From assembly GCA_017450825.1 (NCBI GenBank), contig JAFSSV010000042.1, positions 1-38,156 on the forward strand: DNA of 38,156 nucleotides. Direction: 5' to 3'. The position numbers and the translations under genes are program-made. The notes beneath the pieces were generated by a model that was given only the letters and a program-made list of their open reading frames with translations, did no database searches and was not told the origin of the DNA. Source of the stretch: Synergistaceae bacterium (GTDB taxonomy: Bacteria > Synergistota > Synergistia > Synergistales > Aminobacteriaceae). Every line of letters starts with the position of its first letter. Positions within the stretch are counted from its first letter, which is position 1. Positions 1-34,790 of the stretch are shown one piece after another.

Positions 1-108
1 CCCTTACACAGGGGGGACGAGAGAGTTTTTCGACCTTCGCTATTCTCTTTACACCGTGCCTCCCCTGCGTAAGGGGAGGTGGTGAGCGCAGCGAACCGGA
101 GGGGTTGT
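1..108. repeat. Composite palindromic repeat, truncated by window edge
   Basis: Two arms of the window's GC-rich palindromic element face each other. The left arm (1-26, CCCTTACACAGGGG then CGAGAGAG) is cut by the window edge. The right arm (56-108) has the hairpin CCTCCCC-N7-GGGGAGG at 59-79 followed by GGTGAGCGCAGCGAACCGG and AGGGGTTGT. The spacer between them, read on the minus strand, resembles the core of the copy at 12449-12622 (GTGTAAAG.GAATA, then ACTCTC), so this looks like a near full-length copy in reverse orientation. A short fragment (AGAGGCCGGAGGGGCTT) follows at 121-137. Confidence 0.75.
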
Positions 109-136
109 AGCTAAAATAAAAAGAGGCCGGAGGGGC

Positions 137-4386: not shown

Positions 4387-5754
4387 ATGAAGACTTTATA
4401 TCTTGACTGTTTCGCCGGGATTGCCGGCGATATGTTTATTGGGGCATTGTTGAATCTCGTGCCCGATAGAAATATTTTAATCGAAGGCATAAAAAAAATT
4501 ACGGCGCTCGATCCTTCGGAGTATGAATTAATAATAGAAGACTCCACCAAGAACGGGATCGCCGGAATAAATTTTGACGTTAAATTAAATCATTCTCACC
4601 ACGACCACTCCCCTTTAAGTTCTAACCACAACCCCTCCGACCTCACTTCGTTCGGGCACCTCCCCTTACACAGGGGCGGCGAGAGTGTAGAAGAAACAGA
4701 GTCTCATCATCATGACCATGAACACCATCATCACGAGCATAGACACTTAGCCGATATCGAAGCAATGATACTTTCAAGCGGTCTTTCAGAAAGAGTCAAG
4801 CGCGAAACTATACGGGCCTTTTCGATTTTGGCGGAAGCTGAAGCCCATGTCCACGGCACAACGCCCGATAAGATTCATTTTCATGAAGTCGGCGCGGTCG
4901 ACTCGATTATAGATATAACAGGAGCTTTTATCTTAATGGAAGCGCTAGGCTGGCCGCGTGTATTTTGTTCGGCGATTAACGTAGGCTCCGGGACGGTTGA
5001 ATGCGCTCATGGAATTTTGCCAGTGCCTGCTCCTGCGACTGAATATTTATTGCGTGGGCTTCCGATTTTTTCGGCTGGTTCTCCAATGGAAAGAACGACA
5101 CCGACAGGCGCATTATTAGTAAAAATTCTTGTCGATGATTTCTGCACAGTTCCGGGCGGAACTATTCAAGCCTCCGGGTTCGGTCTTGGCAATCGTGACT
5201 CGGAAGATATGCCGAACGTTTTAAGAGCGTTGCTGTATAAAAATTGTATCTTCGGGCCTGACGTTTTCTCGTTGAGATCTTTATTAAAAGACTCTCAGAA
5301 AGAGATCGAACAAGACGGAATGATTCAAGAAAAAATTTCTTTGCTTGAAACCAATATTGACGATATGAATCCCCAAGACTTCGAGCCTGTAATAGAAAAA
5401 TTATTTGAGGCCGGAGCCCTCGATGTCTGGACAGAAAATATAAACATGAAAAAAAGCCGCCCGGGCGTAAAATTCTGCTGCCTTGCCCGTCATGAAGACA
5501 GCGCGAAATTTTCAAAAATAATTTTGCAGCATACAACTTCACAGGGCGTTCGCCTTCATGATGTTGAGCGCCTGCGTCTGAACTGGAAGCTCGAAGAGGT
5601 TGAAACTTCCCTCGGGAAAATTTCAGTAAAAACTACGGAGCTTGAAGGAAAAACCTTGCGCCGTGTCCCGGAGTACAAAGACCTCAAAGCCTTGGCCGAA
5701 CGTAATCAACTTCCTATGTATGAAATCAGAAAGCTTATCGCAAAGGAGATTTAA
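4387..5754 (+). CDS. larC: LarC, nickel insertion for the nickel-pincer cofactor
   Basis: 455 aa in one continuous frame. LarC carries out CTP-dependent Ni insertion into the pyridinium-dithiocarboxylate precursor of the lactate racemase cofactor. The N-terminus (YLDCFAGIAGDMFIGALL), the HFHEVGAVDSIIDI block, ERTTPTGALL and the C-terminal LETNIDDMNPQ region are all typical. In some bacteria larC is read through a frameshift (larC1/larC2); here no shift is needed. A His-rich linker around residues 69-120 has been expanded by an in-frame copy of the window's palindromic repeat (4628-4692, residues about 81-102). The linker is poorly conserved in the family, which may explain tolerance. larB is 31 kb away on the other strand. 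Confidence 0.92.
   Translation: MKTLYLDCFAGIAGDMFIGALLNLVPDRNILIEGIKKITALDPSEYELIIEDSTKNGIAGINFDVKLNHSHHDHSPLSSNHNPSDLTSFGHLPLHRGGESVEETESHHHDHEHHHHEHRHLADIEAMILSSGLSERVKRETIRAFSILAEAEAHVHGTTPDKIHFHEVGAVDSIIDITGAFILMEALGWPRVFCSAINVGSGTVECAHGILPVPAPATEYLLRGLPIFSAGSPMERTTPTGALLVKILVDDFCTVPGGTIQASGFGLGNRDSEDMPNVLRALLYKNCIFGPDVFSLRSLLKDSQKEIEQDGMIQEKISLLETNIDDMNPQDFEPVIEKLFEAGALDVWTENINMKKSRPGVKFCCLARHEDSAKFSKIILQHTTSQGVRLHDVERLRLNWKLEEVETSLGKISVKTTELEGKTLRRVPEYKDLKALAERNQLPMYEIRKLIAKEI
4608..4692 (+). repeat. Palindromic repeat inserted in frame within larC
   Basis: ACAACCCCTCCGACC at 4628-4642, then CACTTCG, then CACCTCCCCTTACACAGGGG (4657-4676) and CGGCGAGAGTGTAG match the arm and core-start of the repeats at 1-108, 12449-12622 and 34545-34640. 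It is read as residues NPSDLTSFGHLPLHRGGES in the LarC His-rich linker. Nothing like this peptide is expected in LarC. Confidence 0.85.
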
Positions 5755-12433: not shown

Positions 12434-12448
12434 CCGTTTCTTTTAACT

Positions 12449-12622
12449 ACAACCCCTCCGCCTCCTTTCAGTCGGCACCTCCCCTTTCAGGGGAGGCAAG
12501 AGTGTAAAGGGAATAAAAGATGTCGAAGAACTCTCTTGCGCCCCGCCGTCCCTGTAAGGGAAGGGGGACCGCTTGCGGTGGAAGGGTTAGGGGAGAGGGC
12601 CACGAAGTGGCGAGGGGGTTGC
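12449..12622. repeat. Longest palindromic repeat copy (MITE-like), intergenic
   Basis: Fills most of the 295-nt gap before flgM. The left arm begins ACAACCCCTCCG (12449-12460) and carries the hairpin CCTCCCCT-TTC-AGGGGAGG (12478-12496). A central core, AGAGTGTAAAGGGAATA through GTCGAAGAACTCTCT, has AGAGT/ACTCT inverted ends. The right arm includes GACCGCTTGCGGTGG (12567-12581), the hairpin GCCACGAAGTGGC (12599-12611) and ends GAGGGGGTTGC. Outer ends AACCCCTC / GAGGGGGTT are inverted relative to each other. No coding sequence is seen inside. Confidence 0.8.
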
Positions 12623-12638
12623 TTTTAAAAATGGCTGC

Positions 12639-13499: not shown

Positions 13500-16400
13500 A
13501 TGAGCAGCACTTTCGGCGGCCTCGAAATGGGCAAGAGCGCCTTAAACGCCTTCCGTTTAGGAATGCAGACCGTAGGCCATAATATTTCTAACATGAACAC
13601 GGAGGGATATTCCCGCCAGCGCGTGAACTTTGCAACCGTTACGCCGGAAGATATTGCACACGTCGGACAGCTTGGACAGGGCATGTATGCCAGCGATATT
13701 GAGCGTATACGGGACGAGTTTCTGGATTTTCAATACAGAGATAACAACGCTACTTTAGGTTATTGGGAAAAACTGAATGACCTTTACGACTCTATTCAGA
13801 ATTATATCGCCGAGCCTAATTCCAGCGGGGTACGCGCCGCAATGGATACATTCTTTACGAATATGCAGTCCGTACAGCAAGCCCCCGAAGACGTTGCCGC
13901 CCGGCGGGCTTTAGTTGAAAGCGCACAGTCTGTAGGGAGTATGCTGTCGAATTTAATCAGCAATTTCGATACTTATAACGAGACAGTTAATATGCAGGTC
14001 AAACAGGCCGTTGACGAGGCTAACGGAATGTTGCACGACCTAGCGGCCCTCAATAAAAAAATTACAGAAGCCGAAGCCTTGGATCAAAACGCCAATGATT
14101 TATACGATCAGCGCGATTTGATTCTTGATAAGCTTTCTAAAATGATGGACATCTCTTATAACGAGCCTATGGAACATAACGGCGTTAAAGGAGAATTCTT
14201 TTTATCTGTCAACGGGCGCGTCTTAGTTCAGGGAATTCACGTGAGGGAATTAAAAGCTCATGCTTTCATGTGGGACAATCAAGTTTATTATGATGTTCAA
14301 GTTGACGAGAACGAGTTTGATATAGTCGCCGATCCCAACATAGCAGAAGCTCTAGCGGTCGGCCCGGAAGGAACTTATCAGCTTACAGTTGATCGCGTAG
14401 CCAACGGCCTCGAATGGACAACAGGCGGCGGCAATGCTCATTGTTTAGAAACAAGCGCGGCCTTGACTTCGGACTTTGCTGAAAAAATAGTTTTAAATTC
14501 TTCATCTGCTGATATTCCATATAAATTATCGTTCAGAGTCCTTGACGCTGACGACAAGCCTTCAGTTCTTAATATTAAAATAGATAAAGATTCTTCACGC
14601 TGGAAGCTGCGCGCTGAACTTAACGGCGACGCTCTTGACGATTTAACCACCTATACAGACAGCACGGACTTGACACTCGAAAAATTAATGAGTTTCATAA
14701 ACGACGCGGCCTCCAGTGAAAATATAGCGCTCGAAGCTCAAGAGAGGGGCAACGCGCTTTTATTTGTTCCTACTGAAAATTCTTCGATTGAAGTTACGGA
14801 CTATGCAGGAATCTTGGGAACGTTGACCGAGATTAAGCGCGAACTTCCTTCCGTAAACATGAGGACAGAGCCCGAAAAAATCACGGACGCGTTGAATATT
14901 TCCGGGTCATTCAGAATTCAAGTAGGGACTCAAGGTACGCGAGTTACGTCAAATAATTTCGGAGCTAACTCCGGGAAAAATCTTGAAGCCGGAGAAATTC
15001 TAGGCGAAGGAACGGTCGGAGAGCGTCATACGTTCCGGATCGGTGTCGCCGGCGATCAGGTTGATTTTACAGTTAGCTGGAACGCCTCCACAAGTAAATG
15101 GGTTTTAAGTTCTGACTTAGGAACAAGCGCAACCGCTGGCGAAACTTTAACTGTAAAAGATCTTACGGATTTCATGAGCGACACGATAATAAATTCAACT
15201 GACGTTGACGCTCAGGCGCTGGACAGTTTAGGAATCACTACGGGGAAATCTTCATCGGGAGTTGTAACTCAATTTTATATTGAAAGCCGTGATAATCATT
15301 TGCTTTCAATTTCAGATGTTGAAGGCAACTTGGCCGAGCAGCTTGGCATAGTCAACAAAAATCCCGTGATAACGATTGACGTAGAAAATACTGACAGCCT
15401 CGTAACGATCCGCAACAAAATCAACGAAAAATATCAGGAAGAGTTCGGGCTTACTTCGCCTGAACAATGGGTTCATGCTTCAGTTGATAAAGGCTATCTT
15501 GAAATTTCCGCCAACGTTGCGGGCGAAGCTCAGCGCATAACTTTAATGGGCTCGACTGATGGAAATATGCAGGTGCTGCGCCGCCTTGGCCTCACGAGCA
15601 ATCATAAAATTGTTACAGATATTCTTGACGACAACGACGAAAAAATGATCAGCTACAGGGAAGTAGCTTATATTCCAGATAGCGGCGTAGCTCAAGACGC
15701 TTCATTCAGTTTGAACGGCGTACATTATCTTTCTTCTGATAATAAATTCAATCTTGCCCGAAGAGTTCCTGCTTTGACGGGCGATGTCGGCGACCGTTAT
15801 TCAGCTAAAGAACTTACAACGGTAAGCGACGGCTTATGGCTGAACTTGAAAGAGGCCGGCAGCACGATAATAACCGTAAGACACCATATTCAAGACGGAA
15901 CTATTAAGGGCCTCGAAGAAGCCCGTGACGAAATGATACCGAATTTGAAGTCCGAGCTTGATGAATTAGCTTACGGGTTAATAAATTCTATTAACGCCTA
16001 CCAGTATTCAGGCTACGGAGTCTCCGGCGATATAACGACAACGGGCGTAGCTTTCTTTAATCCTCTTGGCACTAAGGCCGGAGCTGCTCAAAGATTAAGC
16101 GTAAATGAAAAAGTCAGTGCAGATCCTTCATTAATTGGCGCGGCAATGGGCGCTAAAGATGAAAACGGCTTGGCCCTCAAAGGCGTAAGCGGCGGCTCAG
16201 GCGACGGCACTAACGCTTCACGCATGAATAATTTGAACTTCGCTAAAGTCCTTGAGAACGGAACAATGACTATAGCCGGAGTCTATGACGCTATGTTATC
16301 TCAAATCGGAACTGAAGCGGGTCATACAAAATTAATGTACACGACTCAAGCAACCGTGAGCGAACAAATAGACGGCCAGCGTCAAGCCGTGAGCGGCGTA

Positions 16401-16529
16401 AACCTGGACGAAGAATTAATGAACATGGTAATTTTAAATCGTGCCTTCGGTGCTATGTCGCGTTATATTTCTACTATGGACGAAATGTTAAATACAATTA
16501 TTAACGGCATGGGCCTCGTAGGACGATAA
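13500..16529 (+). CDS. flgK: Hook-associated protein FlgK (HAP1), unusually long
   Basis: 1009 aa; most FlgK are 450-650 aa. The N-terminal rod-type motif LRLGMQTV-like sequence (NAFRLGMQTVGHNISNMNTE) and the C-terminal helix (DEELMNMVILNRAFGAMSRY) are canonical, so the axial D0/D1 parts are intact. The extra length lies in the middle (residues about 250-800), which has several beta-rich repeats of similar kind (LNIKIDKDSSRWKLRAELNG; TFRIGVAGDQVDFTVSWNAS; ITIDVENTDSLVTIRNKINE), likely surface-exposed decoration domains. FlgK forms the junction between hook and filament. It starts 8 nt after flgN. The repeat-rich centre resembles that of FlgL downstream. Confidence 0.92.
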   Translation: MSSTFGGLEMGKSALNAFRLGMQTVGHNISNMNTEGYSRQRVNFATVTPEDIAHVGQLGQGMYASDIERIRDEFLDFQYRDNNATLGYWEKLNDLYDSIQNYIAEPNSSGVRAAMDTFFTNMQSVQQAPEDVAARRALVESAQSVGSMLSNLISNFDTYNETVNMQVKQAVDEANGMLHDLAALNKKITEAEALDQNANDLYDQRDLILDKLSKMMDISYNEPMEHNGVKGEFFLSVNGRVLVQGIHVRELKAHAFMWDNQVYYDVQVDENEFDIVADPNIAEALAVGPEGTYQLTVDRVANGLEWTTGGGNAHCLETSAALTSDFAEKIVLNSSSADIPYKLSFRVLDADDKPSVLNIKIDKDSSRWKLRAELNGDALDDLTTYTDSTDLTLEKLMSFINDAASSENIALEAQERGNALLFVPTENSSIEVTDYAGILGTLTEIKRELPSVNMRTEPEKITDALNISGSFRIQVGTQGTRVTSNNFGANSGKNLEAGEILGEGTVGERHTFRIGVAGDQVDFTVSWNASTSKWVLSSDLGTSATAGETLTVKDLTDFMSDTIINSTDVDAQALDSLGITTGKSSSGVVTQFYIESRDNHLLSISDVEGNLAEQLGIVNKNPVITIDVENTDSLVTIRNKINEKYQEEFGLTSPEQWVHASVDKGYLEISANVAGEAQRITLMGSTDGNMQVLRRLGLTSNHKIVTDILDDNDEKMISYREVAYIPDSGVAQDASFSLNGVHYLSSDNKFNLARRVPALTGDVGDRYSAKELTTVSDGLWLNLKEAGSTIITVRHHIQDGTIKGLEEARDEMIPNLKSELDELAYGLINSINAYQYSGYGVSGDITTTGVAFFNPLGTKAGAAQRLSVNEKVSADPSLIGAAMGAKDENGLALKGVSGGSGDGTNASRMNNLNFAKVLENGTMTIAGVYDAMLSQIGTEAGHTKLMYTTQATVSEQIDGQRQAVSGVNLDEELMNMVILNRAFGAMSRYISTMDEMLNTIINGMGLVGR

Positions 16530-16562: not shown

Positions 16563-16810
16563 ACCCACGCCGACCCAAGGAGAGGCTTTGTGTAGAAGGA
16601 ATCCTAGCCTCCCTCGGGGGAGGGGAACCGCTTGCGGTGGTGGGGGTTATTTCAAAGTAAAGAGGAACCGCTTGCGGTGGTGGGGGTTATTTCAAAGTAA
16701 AGAGGGCCGCTTGCGGCGGGGGGATTCCTTACCACAACCCCCTCCGGCCTTTTGGGCCACCTCCCCAAGGGGAGGCTTTGCGGTGGTGGGGGTTATTTAA
16801 AAGAGGGCCA
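16563..16810. repeat. Palindromic repeat cluster between flgK and flgL
   Basis: Fills the 301-nt flgK-flgL gap; no gene seen. It contains a perfect 40-bp tandem duplication (16625-16664 and 16665-16704) starting GAACCGCTTGCGGTGG and ending CAAAGTAAAGAG, a related GGCCGCTTGCGGCGG module (16705-16720), and an arm ACAACCCCCTCCGGCC-TTTT-GGGCCACC joined to the hairpin CCTCCCC-AA-GGGGAGG (about 16733-16776). A third partial copy of the tandem unit (GCGGTGGTGGGGGTTATTT) follows at 16779-16798. Confidence 0.85.
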
Positions 16811-16830: not shown

Positions 16831-19800
16831 ATGTACAGTCGTTTAACTACATCTACAATGTACGGAAGCTTAATGAATTCTTTACAGAGCGCACAGAGAA
16901 ATATTCAAGACTTGCAGCAGCAAATAGCTTCCGGCAATAAATATTCCAAGCTTTCAGACAATCCATCAGCGATTTCACGTTCTTTGACCGTCCAATCGGC
17001 ACTGAACGCTAACGATAAATATCAAGAGAATTCTCAAAATGCCGTTACACTGCTCCGGCATTCCTACAGCGCATTAAATAACGTCCTTGACGCAGTGCAG
17101 ACAATAAAAAATTTAATCATTCAGGCCGGTGATGCGGCGCTAGACTCAAGCCAGTTAAAAGATATTACAGAACAAATAGAAGCCAATAAAAAAATCATGC
17201 TCGACAATTTAAATACAAAAGTTGCCGGGCAATATCTTTTCGGGGGAACTGATACAGCTACAGTCCCTTTCATAGAAAAATCCGACGGCTCTATCGTATA
17301 TCAGGGAACTGACGACAGAATTAAATACGCCTTGAGCGAGAGTCTCTTAGGAGATGTAAGCTTCGCCGGAAGCGACATAGTACCGGAGAACGAAGACTCT
17401 TATTTTATTTGTTCGCATTATGTCCCTATGGACTGGAAATGGACAGGCCGCGAAGAGAAAGTTCAAATCACCGTAGGAAATCGTACGCTTTCAGTTTTTA
17501 TTCCGGAGGACTGGAGCGACAACGACATTTCAAAAACTAACACCGACACCGTAAATTATTCAGACAATAACGGCTACAGAGATCCCAATGAAGTTTCAGG
17601 CATAAGCCTTGACGATCTCGCTACTATAGTTAATCGTTCGCTCGAAGAACAAGGCGCGGATATGTTAGTAAGCGCTTATATCGAACGTGATTATGACGCT
17701 GGAAGACAGCAGCTCATAATAAAATCCAACACCGGCGAGAAGGTCGGCATAACCGGCTGGCCCGATACTGATTATATGCCGGTGCCTGCGACTGTAACAA
17801 GCAAGGACTTTGACGACGTAGAATTTTCAGGCGACGACGAAAACCCTTCAGGCACTCTGAAAATTAAATTAAACAATGACGAGTCAACTTTAGTCACCGT
17901 TAATTTAATCGAAGGCGATACAGTGGAAACCGTAGCTGAAAAATTAAATTCTATCGAAGGAGTTTACGCCCGGACTTCGGCCGATAAAAAAAGCTTGATA
18001 GTATCGGCAACCCGTACCGGAGATCTTCCGGCGGATCGGCTTAACGTTGACGAAGCTCAAGAAGCTTTACATTATCCAACGCTCACAATTACGGGCGAAG
18101 GTACAGCGCTTGAAATTTTTGACTTCAACAAAGACACCGGCTCGATATTGGCCAAGCCTACGACAAGACTCTTAGATCAAAGCCAAATAGATATTTTTGA
18201 TTATCTCGGCATGGAAACGGCAACAAAGAGTCGCGAATTTGCTCCGGGCGAAACTGTCACCGTAGACGATGGAACGCAACTACATTGGCGCGTCATGAGC
18301 GGAGGACGGAGCGTAGATATAAAATTAAATTCCGGCGAATATACTATTAACGATCTTGCCGAAAGACTCCGTAATGCCGGAACGGGCTGGCTTGAAGTTA
18401 CTGTCGAACCGGGCGGCGTTGACGTTGACGACAGTTGGAAGCGCGGCACCCTTGACGGCGAAGCACAGACCGAACGACTCATTATGCGCGGCTATAACGG
18501 CGAACAGGTTATATTCTTAGATATGAATCAATATAACTACGCCGACAAGCTCGGAGTCTCTACGGCTTTGAGATCTGATCCCTATACTTCAGCCTCCGTG
18601 GGGCGCGGTATGAAATGCGTGAATTTTCCTTCGGCTCCGTGTGTCGATGATAACGTAGGCATTCAAATGCGCGTTCAAATGAATTGCGGAATGTCTTATG
18701 ACGTTAATATTAAAAAGGCTGATGTCGTTGACGTTCAGACAGGCTTTGTAGATCGCGCCCTCCTCATGAAACAAATAGTTAATCAAGTCAACGAACAGGA
18801 AGGCTATAACGTTATGGGTTTTGTTCAGCATGTTGACAGCACCGGACAGAACATAGACGAGTCATGCTCAATGTATTTCCTTTCGGGCGAAGCCTTTACA
18901 GTTGTTGATCTTCCTTTTAATGATCCGGAATGGGACGATTATTCCGGAGGCTTGGCCGCTCAAATGGGAATTCACGGCGGAGTCACTTCAAACTTAAAAC
19001 AGACTCATGTAAAAATTAAAGACAACATGACCTTTGCTGAAGCCTATGACGACAGCGATATGAATCCCGACAGCTTGACCTTCAGAGAAGGGACTGTGAG
19101 ATTTTCAAACCTTGCTCACAGCGTTGAAATAGACATTCATTCTGATGATACAGTTAAAGATGTAATGGATCGCTTGCGCATTCAGGCGGGCGATTGGCTC
19201 TATGTTAATTATTATGACGAGCATATGGGACAGGAGGCCACGCGCAACACCGGCGACTTTCCTTTGATTTCAATCTCTTCGATTGACGGCTCGGCCGTGA
19301 ACGTCTTAGACATTAAAGGACACTTGGCCGAAGACGCGTTAGGACTCTCAACAGGAATTCAGGGCCGCTTGAATTATGACGGCGACACTTCCGAAGATGC
19401 CGGGATAATGTCAAAGTCTTGGGACATTGAAGGACAGAATTTTGATGCTGATCTCTTGAATATAACCGTAGCTGGCTACACACATACGCTTGACCTTCGC
19501 TCTATCCGTGACGTTACGAGCAACAACTCAACCAGCGGCGAAGCTAAGGCCGATGACATCGCAGAATTCATTAATGCCCGTATGCAGGACTTCGACGTTA
19601 AAGCAGAAATCAACGAAGACAAAGAACTCGTAGTTTATTCGCCGCGGGGCTATTCAATCGAGATTGCTTTTCTTGATGACGTGAACGACGATTTTATTAA
19701 CTCAACCCCTTCGGCCAAAGCCTACAACGAAAAAATTTATTCTGACCTTGAGAACACTTCGGCACCAATTAAAACGACTCAAACTTTTGCTGAAGCTTAT

Positions 19801-20892
19801 TCAAGTTTCAGGGACAGCACAATAAGAGTCTATGACTCAAAAAATAACAGCGTTGACATTAACATCACTGGCACCGACACCGTAGAAACTTTCACGAACA
19901 AATTAAAAGCCGCCGCGGGGAGCTGGCTCAACGTTGAATATGACGGCTCGGGAACTTATCCAATAATCTCTCTTTCTTCGACAGGCAACAACGGCGAAGC
20001 TATCAGCGTTATAGATTTTCAAGGTCATATTGCCGAGGACGTACTCGGAATTTCAACAGGCGTTCAAGGCCGGATTAATCCCAGCGGAACAGGCCAAGGC
20101 GTTATGGATTTGACTTGGGACTTAGACAACAGGGACGACTTCGCCGCCGAAGAATTTGTCGCAACGATTGACGGAAAAAATTATCGCGTTAATTTAACTG
20201 AGATAGATAAATTTGTGACGGGTACTACCGTTACTACAGAGAACGTTGTAGACTTTATAAATTCAAAGCTCGGTGACTATGATTTTAAATTGGCAATCAA
20301 CGACGACAAAGAACTCGTAGCTTACGCGCCGGGCGGCTCGTCAATCAAGATTGCTTTCTTGAATAATAACAGCAAAGAATTTTTAGGCGATGATACTTGC
20401 GTCTTAGACCGGACGCATTACAGAGGCGGCTATAACCTGGAAGGGCAGGCTTATAAATCAGACAGCACTGACCCGCGCGGAGTCTCTGAGGGGTTATATG
20501 ACATTGGCATTCATACCCAGAACGCTACGATTAGAAGCGGCGCTAACACCATGAAGCAAAACGGCTTCGGAGTAATTAATGACGTTATGGCGGCAATAGA
20601 AGCAGGCAACCGTGACGACCTTTTAGAGAAAATGCTCCCGAGGGTTGACGCTTTCATGGATAATATTCTTAGCGTCATGGCGGAGAACGGAGCCTTACAG
20701 GCACGATACGATTACAATAATCAAAGGCTTGTGAGCGAGAATGCTATTATGGTCGAAGAGTATGACAATCTCGTCAAAATAGACCCGGCCGAGTCAATTT
20801 CTCAGTTAATGGTCGCTGACTATATGTATCAGGCTAACCTTGCTGTAATAGCGAGATTGATTCAGCCGAGCCTCTTGGACTTCTTAGGATAA
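16831..20892 (+). CDS. flgL: Hook-associated protein FlgL (HAP3), giant form with internal repeats
   Basis: 1353 aa; typical FlgL are about 300-500 aa. The N-terminal 150 residues (QQIASGNKYSKLSDNPSAIS; KVAGQYLFGGTDT) and the C-terminal ~150 (ENAIMVEEYDNLVKIDPAES) are the flagellin-like coiled-coil ends of FlgL. Between them lie ~1000 residues of beta-rich repeats. Two long units, residues about 725-955 and 982-1187, are clearly related: FAEAYDD/FAEAYSS, VEIDIHSDDTVKDVMDRL/VDINITGTDTVETFTNKL, GHLAEDALGLSTGIQGRL/GHIAEDVLGISTGVQGRI, INEDKELVVYSPRG/INDDKELVAYAPGG. Shorter related motifs occur earlier. GAAGGAG precedes the ATG. Its 3' end overlaps the convergent DUF1667 gene by 9 nt. Confidence 0.92.
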   Translation: MYSRLTTSTMYGSLMNSLQSAQRNIQDLQQQIASGNKYSKLSDNPSAISRSLTVQSALNANDKYQENSQNAVTLLRHSYSALNNVLDAVQTIKNLIIQAGDAALDSSQLKDITEQIEANKKIMLDNLNTKVAGQYLFGGTDTATVPFIEKSDGSIVYQGTDDRIKYALSESLLGDVSFAGSDIVPENEDSYFICSHYVPMDWKWTGREEKVQITVGNRTLSVFIPEDWSDNDISKTNTDTVNYSDNNGYRDPNEVSGISLDDLATIVNRSLEEQGADMLVSAYIERDYDAGRQQLIIKSNTGEKVGITGWPDTDYMPVPATVTSKDFDDVEFSGDDENPSGTLKIKLNNDESTLVTVNLIEGDTVETVAEKLNSIEGVYARTSADKKSLIVSATRTGDLPADRLNVDEAQEALHYPTLTITGEGTALEIFDFNKDTGSILAKPTTRLLDQSQIDIFDYLGMETATKSREFAPGETVTVDDGTQLHWRVMSGGRSVDIKLNSGEYTINDLAERLRNAGTGWLEVTVEPGGVDVDDSWKRGTLDGEAQTERLIMRGYNGEQVIFLDMNQYNYADKLGVSTALRSDPYTSASVGRGMKCVNFPSAPCVDDNVGIQMRVQMNCGMSYDVNIKKADVVDVQTGFVDRALLMKQIVNQVNEQEGYNVMGFVQHVDSTGQNIDESCSMYFLSGEAFTVVDLPFNDPEWDDYSGGLAAQMGIHGGVTSNLKQTHVKIKDNMTFAEAYDDSDMNPDSLTFREGTVRFSNLAHSVEIDIHSDDTVKDVMDRLRIQAGDWLYVNYYDEHMGQEATRNTGDFPLISISSIDGSAVNVLDIKGHLAEDALGLSTGIQGRLNYDGDTSEDAGIMSKSWDIEGQNFDADLLNITVAGYTHTLDLRSIRDVTSNNSTSGEAKADDIAEFINARMQDFDVKAEINEDKELVVYSPRGYSIEIAFLDDVNDDFINSTPSAKAYNEKIYSDLENTSAPIKTTQTFAEAYSSFRDSTIRVYDSKNNSVDINITGTDTVETFTNKLKAAAGSWLNVEYDGSGTYPIISLSSTGNNGEAISVIDFQGHIAEDVLGISTGVQGRINPSGTGQGVMDLTWDLDNRDDFAAEEFVATIDGKNYRVNLTEIDKFVTGTTVTTENVVDFINSKLGDYDFKLAINDDKELVAYAPGGSSIKIAFLNNNSKEFLGDDTCVLDRTHYRGGYNLEGQAYKSDSTDPRGVSEGLYDIGIHTQNATIRSGANTMKQNGFGVINDVMAAIEAGNRDDLLEKMLPRVDAFMDNILSVMAENGALQARYDYNNQRLVSENAIMVEEYDNLVKIDPAESISQLMVADYMYQANLAVIARLIQPSLLDFLG

Positions 20893-21290: not shown

Positions 21291-22595
21291 TTACAACGGC
21301 AGAACGTCAATCACGATTTCTTTTAAGTCCGGATTGGCTTTTATCATTGACGCTTTGATTCGCGCCTCGTTCATTTCTCCCGGGCGGGCGTAGCGTAATT
21401 TTTGGGTGTAGAGGCCCGGCTCAGCCGTGACTTTGCAAGCCTGTTCGATCGGGTGAGTGACTCGCATATAAATTATAGTGTCGCTCTCTCCCGTTACAAA
21501 CTGCGGGGAAAATAATCTTACATTCTGGCCTCCCTTAACAGGAATACGCTTCTGTTCAGGCGACAACTTCCCGGCCGCAAACTTGGCCGCGTTAGTTCCG
21601 GCTATGAGTCCCTCGTCGCTCACGTTGTCAACGAGGTCATAAACTATTACGACATTTCCAGCTGCAAAGACAGCAGGGTTAGAAGTCTGCAATAAATCAT
21701 TGACAACCGGCCCGCCCGTCACCGGATGAATTTCAATCCCGGCCATTCTTGAAAGTTCGTTCTCAGGTATCAAACCAATCGCAAGCAACAGCGTATCACA
21801 CTCAACAAATCTTTCAGTGCCTTCGATAGGCTTCATTTTCTCGTCAACCTTTGCAACAGTCACGCCTTCGAGTCTATCCTGTCCGTGAATTTTTGTTACG
21901 GTTGTCTGAAGGTGGAAAGGTATCCCGTAATCGTCAAGGCATTGAGCTATATTTCTTCTCAAGCCGCCGGGCCAAGACATTACTTCGTACACTCCTTCGA
22001 CTTCAGCGCCTTCCCAGATCATTCGCCTTGCCATTATCAAGCCTATATCTCCAGAGCCAAGAATTACAGCTTTCTTGCCGGGCATATAGCCTTCCATGTT
22101 CACGAATCTTTGAGCAGTTCCGGCCGTATAAATTCCAGCGGGACGCGAGCCTGGAATTCTTATCGCTCCCAATGGACGCTCACGGCAGCCCATAGTTAAG
22201 ACTATTGCGCCGGGTTCAAGGCATTCAATGCCGCGCTCTTTGTTCATTGTCCAGACTTTCACGGGAACAACCCCTCCACCGTAAGCGGTTCCCCTCCCCT
22301 TAGACAGGGGCGGCTGAGTTTCTATCTGGAAGACCATTGTATTTGTTCTGAACTCTACTCCGGCTTCATGAGCTTCTTGAATAAATCTGTGCATGTATTC
22401 CGGGCCTGTGAGTTCTTCCCTGAAAGTCCTAAGCCCGAAGCCCGGGTGTATACACTGCTGTAAAATTCCTCCGAGATCCCAATCTCTTTCAAGTACTACG
22501 ACATTTTCAGCGCCTTGTTTCTTTGCTCCGATCCCTGCCGCGACTCCAGCGGGGCCGGCTCCAATAATTAGAACGTCAATTTTTTTATTAGTCAT
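21291..22595 (-). CDS. FAD/NAD-dependent oxidoreductase of the glycerol cluster
   Basis: 434 aa. The FAD Rossmann motif VLIIGAGPAGVAAGIGA is at residues 9-25, and a second nucleotide-binding motif (AVILGSGDIGLIMARRM) around residue 155-170 fits NAD(P)H binding. MGCRERPLGAIRIPGSRPAG is characteristic of this family, which partners GlpA-like dehydrogenases and DUF1667. Likely role: passing electrons from glycerol-3-phosphate oxidation to or from NAD(P). Residues about 93-112 (between QIET and VWTMN) are encoded by an in-frame copy of the window's palindromic repeat (22260-22319) and have no counterpart in the family as I know it. The frame stays open through it. Confidence 0.87.
   Translation of the reverse strand: MTNKKIDVLIIGAGPAGVAAGIGAKKQGAENVVVLERDWDLGGILQQCIHPGFGLRTFREELTGPEYMHRFIQEAHEAGVEFRTNTMVFQIETQPPLSKGRGTAYGGGVVPVKVWTMNKERGIECLEPGAIVLTMGCRERPLGAIRIPGSRPAGIYTAGTAQRFVNMEGYMPGKKAVILGSGDIGLIMARRMIWEGAEVEGVYEVMSWPGGLRRNIAQCLDDYGIPFHLQTTVTKIHGQDRLEGVTVAKVDEKMKPIEGTERFVECDTLLLAIGLIPENELSRMAGIEIHPVTGGPVVNDLLQTSNPAVFAAGNVVIVYDLVDNVSDEGLIAGTNAAKFAAGKLSPEQKRIPVKGGQNVRLFSPQFVTGESDTIIYMRVTHPIEQACKVTAEPGLYTQKLRYARPGEMNEARIKASMIKANPDLKEIVIDVLPL
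22266..22318 (-). repeat. Palindromic repeat inserted in frame within the oxidoreductase gene
   Basis: The + strand reads ACAACCCCTCC-like sequence, ACCGTAAGCGGTT (22278-22290) and CCCCTCCCCTTAGACAGGGG (22291-22310), i.e. the same arms and CCGCTTGCGG-type module found in the intergenic copies. In gene direction it is translated as QPPLSKGRGTAYGGGVV. Relative to its host gene the element is in the opposite orientation to the larC copy. Confidence 0.85.
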
Positions 22596-27710: not shown

Positions 27711-27749
27711 TTATACTAAGCACACTTAAAAAACTATAACCTGATGGCG

Positions 27750-27935
27750 AACAAACCCTTCCACCGCAAGCGGTTTTTGAGTAAGGAATCCCCCCGCCGC
27801 AAGCGGCCCTCCCCCCTTAAAAGGGGGGCTTATGGTAGTGCTAATCAAGCCTCCCCTTGGGGAGGTGGTGAACGAAGTGAACCGGAGGGGGTTGTTAAAA
27901 AATAGGAGGTGCCTGGCCGAAGGGAAGGCGGAGTG
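27750..27935. repeat. Composite palindromic repeat, left arm of a long inverted pair
   Basis: Fills the 297-nt gap between the FMN-reductase and the minus-strand operon; no gene seen. Modules in order: CACCGCAAGCGG, GAATCCCCCCGCC, CCGCAAGCGG, the hairpin CCCCCCTTAAAAGGGGGG (27811-27828), the hairpin CCTCCCCTTGGGGAGG (27850-27865), GTGAACGAAGTGAACCGG and GGGGGTTGTT, then GGAGGTGCCTGGCCGAAG. The section 27761-27921 is repeated in inverted orientation at 34566-34724, with about 68 bp identical. Confidence 0.85.
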
Positions 27936-34497: not shown

Positions 34498-34544
34498 GTT
34501 TTAATTTTGCGCTCCTTTTTTAAAAAATTCTTCTATTCTTCTTA

Positions 34545-34790
34545 ACTGCAACCCCTCCGACCTCACTTCGGCCAAGCACCTCCTATTTTTTAACAACCCC
34601 TTCCGGCCCTTCAGGCCACCTCCCCAAGGGGAGGCTTTGTTAGTAATACCCTAAAGCCCCCCTTTTAAGGGGGGAGGGCCGCTTGCGGCGGGGGGATTCC
34701 TTACTCAAAAACCGCTTGCGGTGGTGGAGGTTGCTTTCTAACAAAAGGCCAAGCTTGCTGGCGAGGGGTTGCTTTCTAACAAAGGGTTAT
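34545..34790. repeat. Composite palindromic repeat between flgF and flgG
   Basis: Fills the 313-nt flgF-flgG gap; no gene seen. Modules in order: CAACCCCTCCGACC..ACTTCGGCC, CACCTCC, CAACCCCTTCCGGCC-CTTC-AGGCCACC with CCTCCCC-AA-GGGGAGG (34619-34634), CCCCCCTTTTAAGGGGGG (34658-34675), GGCCGCTTGCGGCGG, ACCGCTTGCGGTGG (34711-34724) and twice GGTTGCTTTCTAACAAA. 34566-34724 is the inverted partner of 27761-27921. Confidence 0.85.

Follow-up and report, generated by a model that had tools for sequence, protein, structure and literature searches.

The stretch of DNA that was analyzed as a whole, hereafter the window (38,156 nucleotides), carries a full-length larC gene, whose product matched the profiles Pfam Ni_insertion (438.7 bits) and NCBIfam LarC1 and LarC2. 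The source genome is a fragmented MAG of 1.90 Mb in 209 contigs (95.5% complete), and its named close relatives are MAGs of ruminant-gut Synergistaceae. A single unbroken reading frame runs across repeat DNA in larC, where an insert lies between the two halves of the His-rich linker (Table 1). The first-pass annotation had read this as a repeat copy without frameshift or stop, which was confirmed by the intact 455-aa frame and by a nucleotide alignment to an intergenic copy that spans 4605–4700. It had put the insert at about 20 residues, whereas 32 were measured (residues 75–106), since on its left the insert takes in the tail of a neighboring unit, and on its right some of the element's middle. 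In the predicted LarC model, low confidence was restricted to residues 70–116, with pLDDT below 50, and 290–303; the insert is predicted to be disordered. The peptide LNHSHHDHSPLSSNHNPSDLTSFGHLPLHR is a tryptic peptide of LarC.

Table 1. Coordinates of larC, its insert, and further repeat copies (positions in the window unless another contig is given)
Feature	Position	Strand	Details
larC, nickel pincer cofactor biosynthesis protein, 455 aa	4387..5754	+	Pfam, NCBIfam
In-frame insert in larC, residues 75-106 (32 aa)	4609..4704	+	SPLSSNHNPSDLTSFGHLPLHRGGESVEETES; relatives' LarC, nucleotide alignment
Core of repeat arm in larC (left arm)	4631..4678	+	ACCCCTCCG, hairpin, CACCTCCCC-loop-GGGGCG
Intergenic element	1..135		
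Intergenic element	12443..12628		
Intergenic element array	16582..16800		
Intergenic element array	27713..27900		
Intergenic element array	34542..34775		Best long match in the window to the larC copy
Diverged in-frame copy in FAD/NAD(P) oxidoreductase gene (21291-22595, minus), ~residues 93-109	22270..22312	+	TQPPLSKGRGTAYGGGV
TmcAL-like gene with repeat, genome G001	L319:2-1258	minus	Pfam HIGH_NTase1, two stretches

The full element consists of two inverted arms of ~50–65 nt, each with two small hairpins, and a linker of ~25–35 nt. The full non-coding composite element of 142 nt folds at -68 kcal/mol (z -4.4), with the arms pairing end to end. The coding copies in larC, ValS, and TypA each consist of one arm and show no excess folding. 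The larC copy had been called palindromic, but it is the left arm alone, folding no better than shuffled sequence (z +0.66); a single arm folds poorly, so that this copy alone forms no palindrome. The larC arm matched a copy on another contig at 97% over 61 bases, and its identity to many further copies was 88–92%. Within the window, the reported identity of the arms held for 34543–34583 (85%) and 1–26 (88%), but not for 12444–12484, which was only 63% identical without gaps. Rfam gave no match in the window. The window also holds a second, putative coding insert, the diverged copy in the oxidoreductase gene, which is 84% complementary to 16608–16645.

A genome-wide search for the 14-base core motif ACAACCCCTCCGNC, allowing up to two mismatches, returned 595 matches against 45 for the control, the motif read backwards, so the copies are not due to chance. 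Most counts in the other 42 genomes of the same genus lay close to those of the controls, but some exceeded them, as in G009 (102 against 33) and G007 (69 against 20). When the full element served as query, in a more sensitive search, relatives of it were found in 18 of the 182 other genomes searched within the order, 14 in the same genus, two elsewhere in the family, and two beyond, and G001, of the same genus, gave 55 matches to the repeat at the peptide level. Loci of other genomes, 957 kb in all, gave no hits to a strict arm pattern (regular expression), but this understates the relatives' copies, as the full-element search showed. Strict species-specificity was rejected, given the fewer related copies elsewhere in the family and the many in G001. 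The repeat family is thus common to relatives, and it is the size of the expansion that marks the source genome.

The LarC alignment contained 29 other proteins of the same genus, of which 28 were readable at the insert site and one (L043) was masked there. None of the 28 had the repeat segment; 27 had a plain His/Glu linker, and the remaining one, from G013, a different insert. In most of the same-genus genomes searched, the LarC matches stopped at residues 71–79 and restarted at residues 93–111. The insert was also absent from LarC homologues of 17 named genomes, partly the same organisms as in the same-genus set, and relatives thus lack the segment as the first-pass annotation had anticipated. 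In the closest LarC (G013, L032), the linker holds an unrelated insert, SSRLAAPPAGAGGES. Because its DNA is nearly single-copy, with only one further partial match in G013, it was ruled out as a high-copy repeat.

The count of in-frame copies covered 864,543 bases, or 45% of the genome, read in stretches selected for the copies they contain. Sequences judged to be something else were excluded: ankyrin-type repeats (L073 and L089), a GGGDFNNNEGQSG repeat (L115), and short k-mer matches (L078, L093 [6837], and L096). After this filtering, 266 element segments were obtained, 19 of them in frame inside 15 genes, and the repeat made up ~6% of the DNA read, a figure that reflects the choice of stretches around copies. 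According to the first-pass annotation, a genome with few copies would have spoken against an insertion; hundreds were found, and larC is joined by many further in-frame carriers. The carriers encode LarC, an RsmB-like protein, LigA, HisH, a CopA-type ATPase, ValS, MutL, TypA, RbgA/YlqF, CobB/CbiA, HydF, a Dus-type dihydrouridine synthase, an Mrr-like nuclease, and two low-complexity proteins, one of them with a TPR region. Some of these genes are essential. The counts are lower bounds, since diverged copies such as 22270–22312 were missed. The sample is ~86% coding, yet only 7% of the segments (19/266) lie inside genes, and most copies are intergenic.

At most four segments overlapped the 3′ end of a gene, each by 25 nt or less, and broken genes therefore look rare, although they could be under-counted in a census that starts from open frames. 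With these four overlaps taken as possible truncations, the proportion of frame-preserving copies, 15/19, exceeds one in three (p ~6e-5), a value that is only indicative because a census built from open frames can miss broken genes. Among the coding copies, both orientations are represented, as are at least five of the six frames. The share of non-coding arms that were open was 77%, 93%, and 91% for the three sense frames and 62%, 68%, and 53% for the antisense frames. Low-complexity, mostly acidic linkers were seen in the repeat-carrying proteins at L118:4584-6083, which has the Mrr-like nuclease domains, L120:1-2220, and L275:5255-6328; in the latter two, the frames used are the same for left and right arms. 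A papain-like cysteine protease reading frame (L073:13631-15655) appears to start in or beside a repeat, and its N-terminal region may be repeat-derived.

Eleven repeat-carrying genes were compared with six relatives. Recovery of the sites was incomplete across genes and relatives, and the repeat-derived insert was absent from the orthologues (up to six relatives per gene) wherever the site was recovered. The TypA alignment had 197 query residues against 182 in relatives, and the Dus alignment a query gap of 63 residues against one. The boundaries of the insertions in HydF and CopA are less sharp, because these loops vary in length and sequence among relatives. A search of the assembly for a second copy of ValS or TypA returned distant paralogues only. 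In the alignments to solved homologues (ValS/1GAX, TypA/4ZCI, Dus/1VHN, and LigA/1DGS), the inserts fell in gaps between conserved blocks. A full palindromic copy, NPSVSLREPPPLDMGGKGNIAPPEKGERASLLARGL, was found in frame in the TmcAL-like nucleotidyltransferase gene of G001, and the in-frame effect is therefore not peculiar to one assembly.

Rickettsia palindromic elements (RPE) and the palindromic elements of Wolbachia are repeats of ~100–150 bp that insert in frame into unrelated, conserved genes at sites tolerated by the protein (PMC2229807, PMC3767692, PMC10969869), and the present repeat is like them in lying in frame in several such genes. Its inserts, which fall in alignment gaps and in the LarC linker predicted to be disordered, may likewise occupy exposed, tolerated positions. 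The full non-coding element, at ~142 nt and strongly palindromic, is within the size range of RPE (100–150 bp), but the larC, ValS, and TypA copies are single arms, and in many coding copies an arm or an array takes the place of the whole palindrome. The host also differs, being a member of Synergistota with ruminant-gut rather than intracellular relatives, unlike the Rickettsiales hosts of RPE, and set against RPE the present repeat uses both orientations and at least five frames. Inserts in R. japonica are common to orthologues across Rickettsia (PMC3767692), whereas the inserts tested here are absent from same-genus species.

The parallel with Rickettsia drawn in the first-pass annotation is apt for the effect, but in-frame palindromic repeats outside Rickettsia had already been reported (PMC3733652). 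Intragenic GTAG/CGTC REPs occur in open reading frames of Opitutus terrae, Thauera, Stenotrophomonas, and others; they are single, dimeric, or grouped, encode 20–82 aa, and affect DNA ligase and tRNA synthetases among other proteins (PMC3733652). Most REP copies are intergenic, mainly between unidirectional or convergent genes, and CGTC REPs have no dedicated transposase (PMC3733652). Similarly, LigA and ValS are hit here, arrays reach ~90 aa, and intergenic elements show an enrichment at convergent genes, which flank 43 of 169 placements but form only 62 of 637 gene pairs in the sampled segments. Unlike those REPs, the present repeat has no consistent GTAG/CGTC tag: CTACA, the complement of GTAG, adjoins 39 of 509 arms and CCACA a further 18, the other end has no single tag, and CGTC is present only in some right arms. 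Unlike GTAG/CGTC REPs with RAYT, it is also found in a genome without a RAYT-type Y1 transposase. Bacterial MITEs with open frames include ERIC/RU-1, RU-2, and the 107-bp Correia element (PMC2229807), and the likeness of the present repeat to MITEs rests on its terminal inverted repeats and the end-to-end pairing of the arms in the 142-nt element. No description of protein-coding palindromic repeats in Synergistota was found in our literature search, most subscription papers being outside its scope, and the first-pass annotation likewise knew of none. The repeat is a new family of a known type, in a new phylum and at a high load, with RPE compared by description.

Taken together, these results make it very probable that larC took up, recently and in frame, a single arm of a mobile-type palindromic repeat (MITE/REP-like), which has expanded to several hundred copies. 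Mobility is suggested by the dispersal of the copies and by the filled and empty sites seen between species. A stop-poor palindromic element would have expanded recently in the Synergistaceae lineage of the source genome. With arms that are G+C-rich and stop-free in most frames of most copies, a copy of frame-keeping length would be read through. Insertion would be roughly indiscriminate, with selection sparing those in-gene copies that keep the frame in tolerant loops or linkers, such as presumably the His-rich linker of LarC, and the census pattern fits indiscriminate insertion followed by selection. Inserts of the LarC type would then be tolerated rather than useful. The repeat may spread via transposition in trans or via copying between repeats, driven by a putative enzyme. 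A RAYT/Y1 transposase was rejected as the mover, since a PF01797 search found none in the 95.5% complete genome; such transposases are present in 15 of 43 same-genus genomes. A phage or plasmid vehicle was rejected as well, as two exact arm patterns were absent from viral contigs and the full element was absent from plasmids.

A false join at a repeat, which would make the larC insert unreal, might be expected in a MAG this fragmented, many contigs of which have ends at or near repeats, but the insert is in the middle of a contig, flanked on either side by larC homology in one frame. Moreover, the frame-preserving pattern was seen in 15 genes, whereas joins of this kind would in most cases disrupt the frame or fuse genes that are unrelated, and we consider such an artefact very unlikely. 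It is scarcely conceivable that the segment is an ordinary, variable, low-complexity LarC linker that resembles the repeat by chance. The linker is indeed His/Glu-rich with a length that varies across the genus, and at this position G013 carries another insert, of low copy number; this reading is nevertheless contradicted by the nucleotide identity, namely the arm's close matches to the copy on another contig and to many others, and by the homology to the intergenic copy, which runs into the flanks.

Given a true insertion, selection might have put the translated arms to use as linkers or domains, and coding copies might have produced more coding copies. GGCGAGAG (Glu) is common to the three left arms that code in the NPSDL frame (larC, C209, and C154), while 20 of the 21 other scorable copies have GGCAAGAG (Lys), and it is the C209 copy that matches the larC copy best. 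However, a pattern of three copies is too few to build on, and the number of frames and both orientations used by the coding copies argue for chance landing rather than for one selected peptide, so that we regard such use as quite unlikely. It is also unlikely that the repeat is currently active and that its translated copies make up a separate coding lineage, in which in-gene copies seed in-gene copies; if this were true, the element would supply essential proteins with new linker segments.

The present repeat extends protein-coding palindromic repeats to Synergistota, with at least 15 genes affected, including those of valyl-tRNA synthetase and DNA ligase. As same-genus species without the tested inserts supply uninterrupted orthologues, both an effect on enzyme function and mere tolerance are testable. 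The repeat-derived segments in MAG proteins of this group will mislead analyses of domains and linkers, which should serve as a warning for annotation. Two further proteins of the window are long for their families, a FlgK-like protein (13500–16529, 1009 aa) and a FlgL-like protein (16831–20892, 1353 aa), the latter with internal repeats at 19588–19670 and 20275–20357 that are 80% identical.
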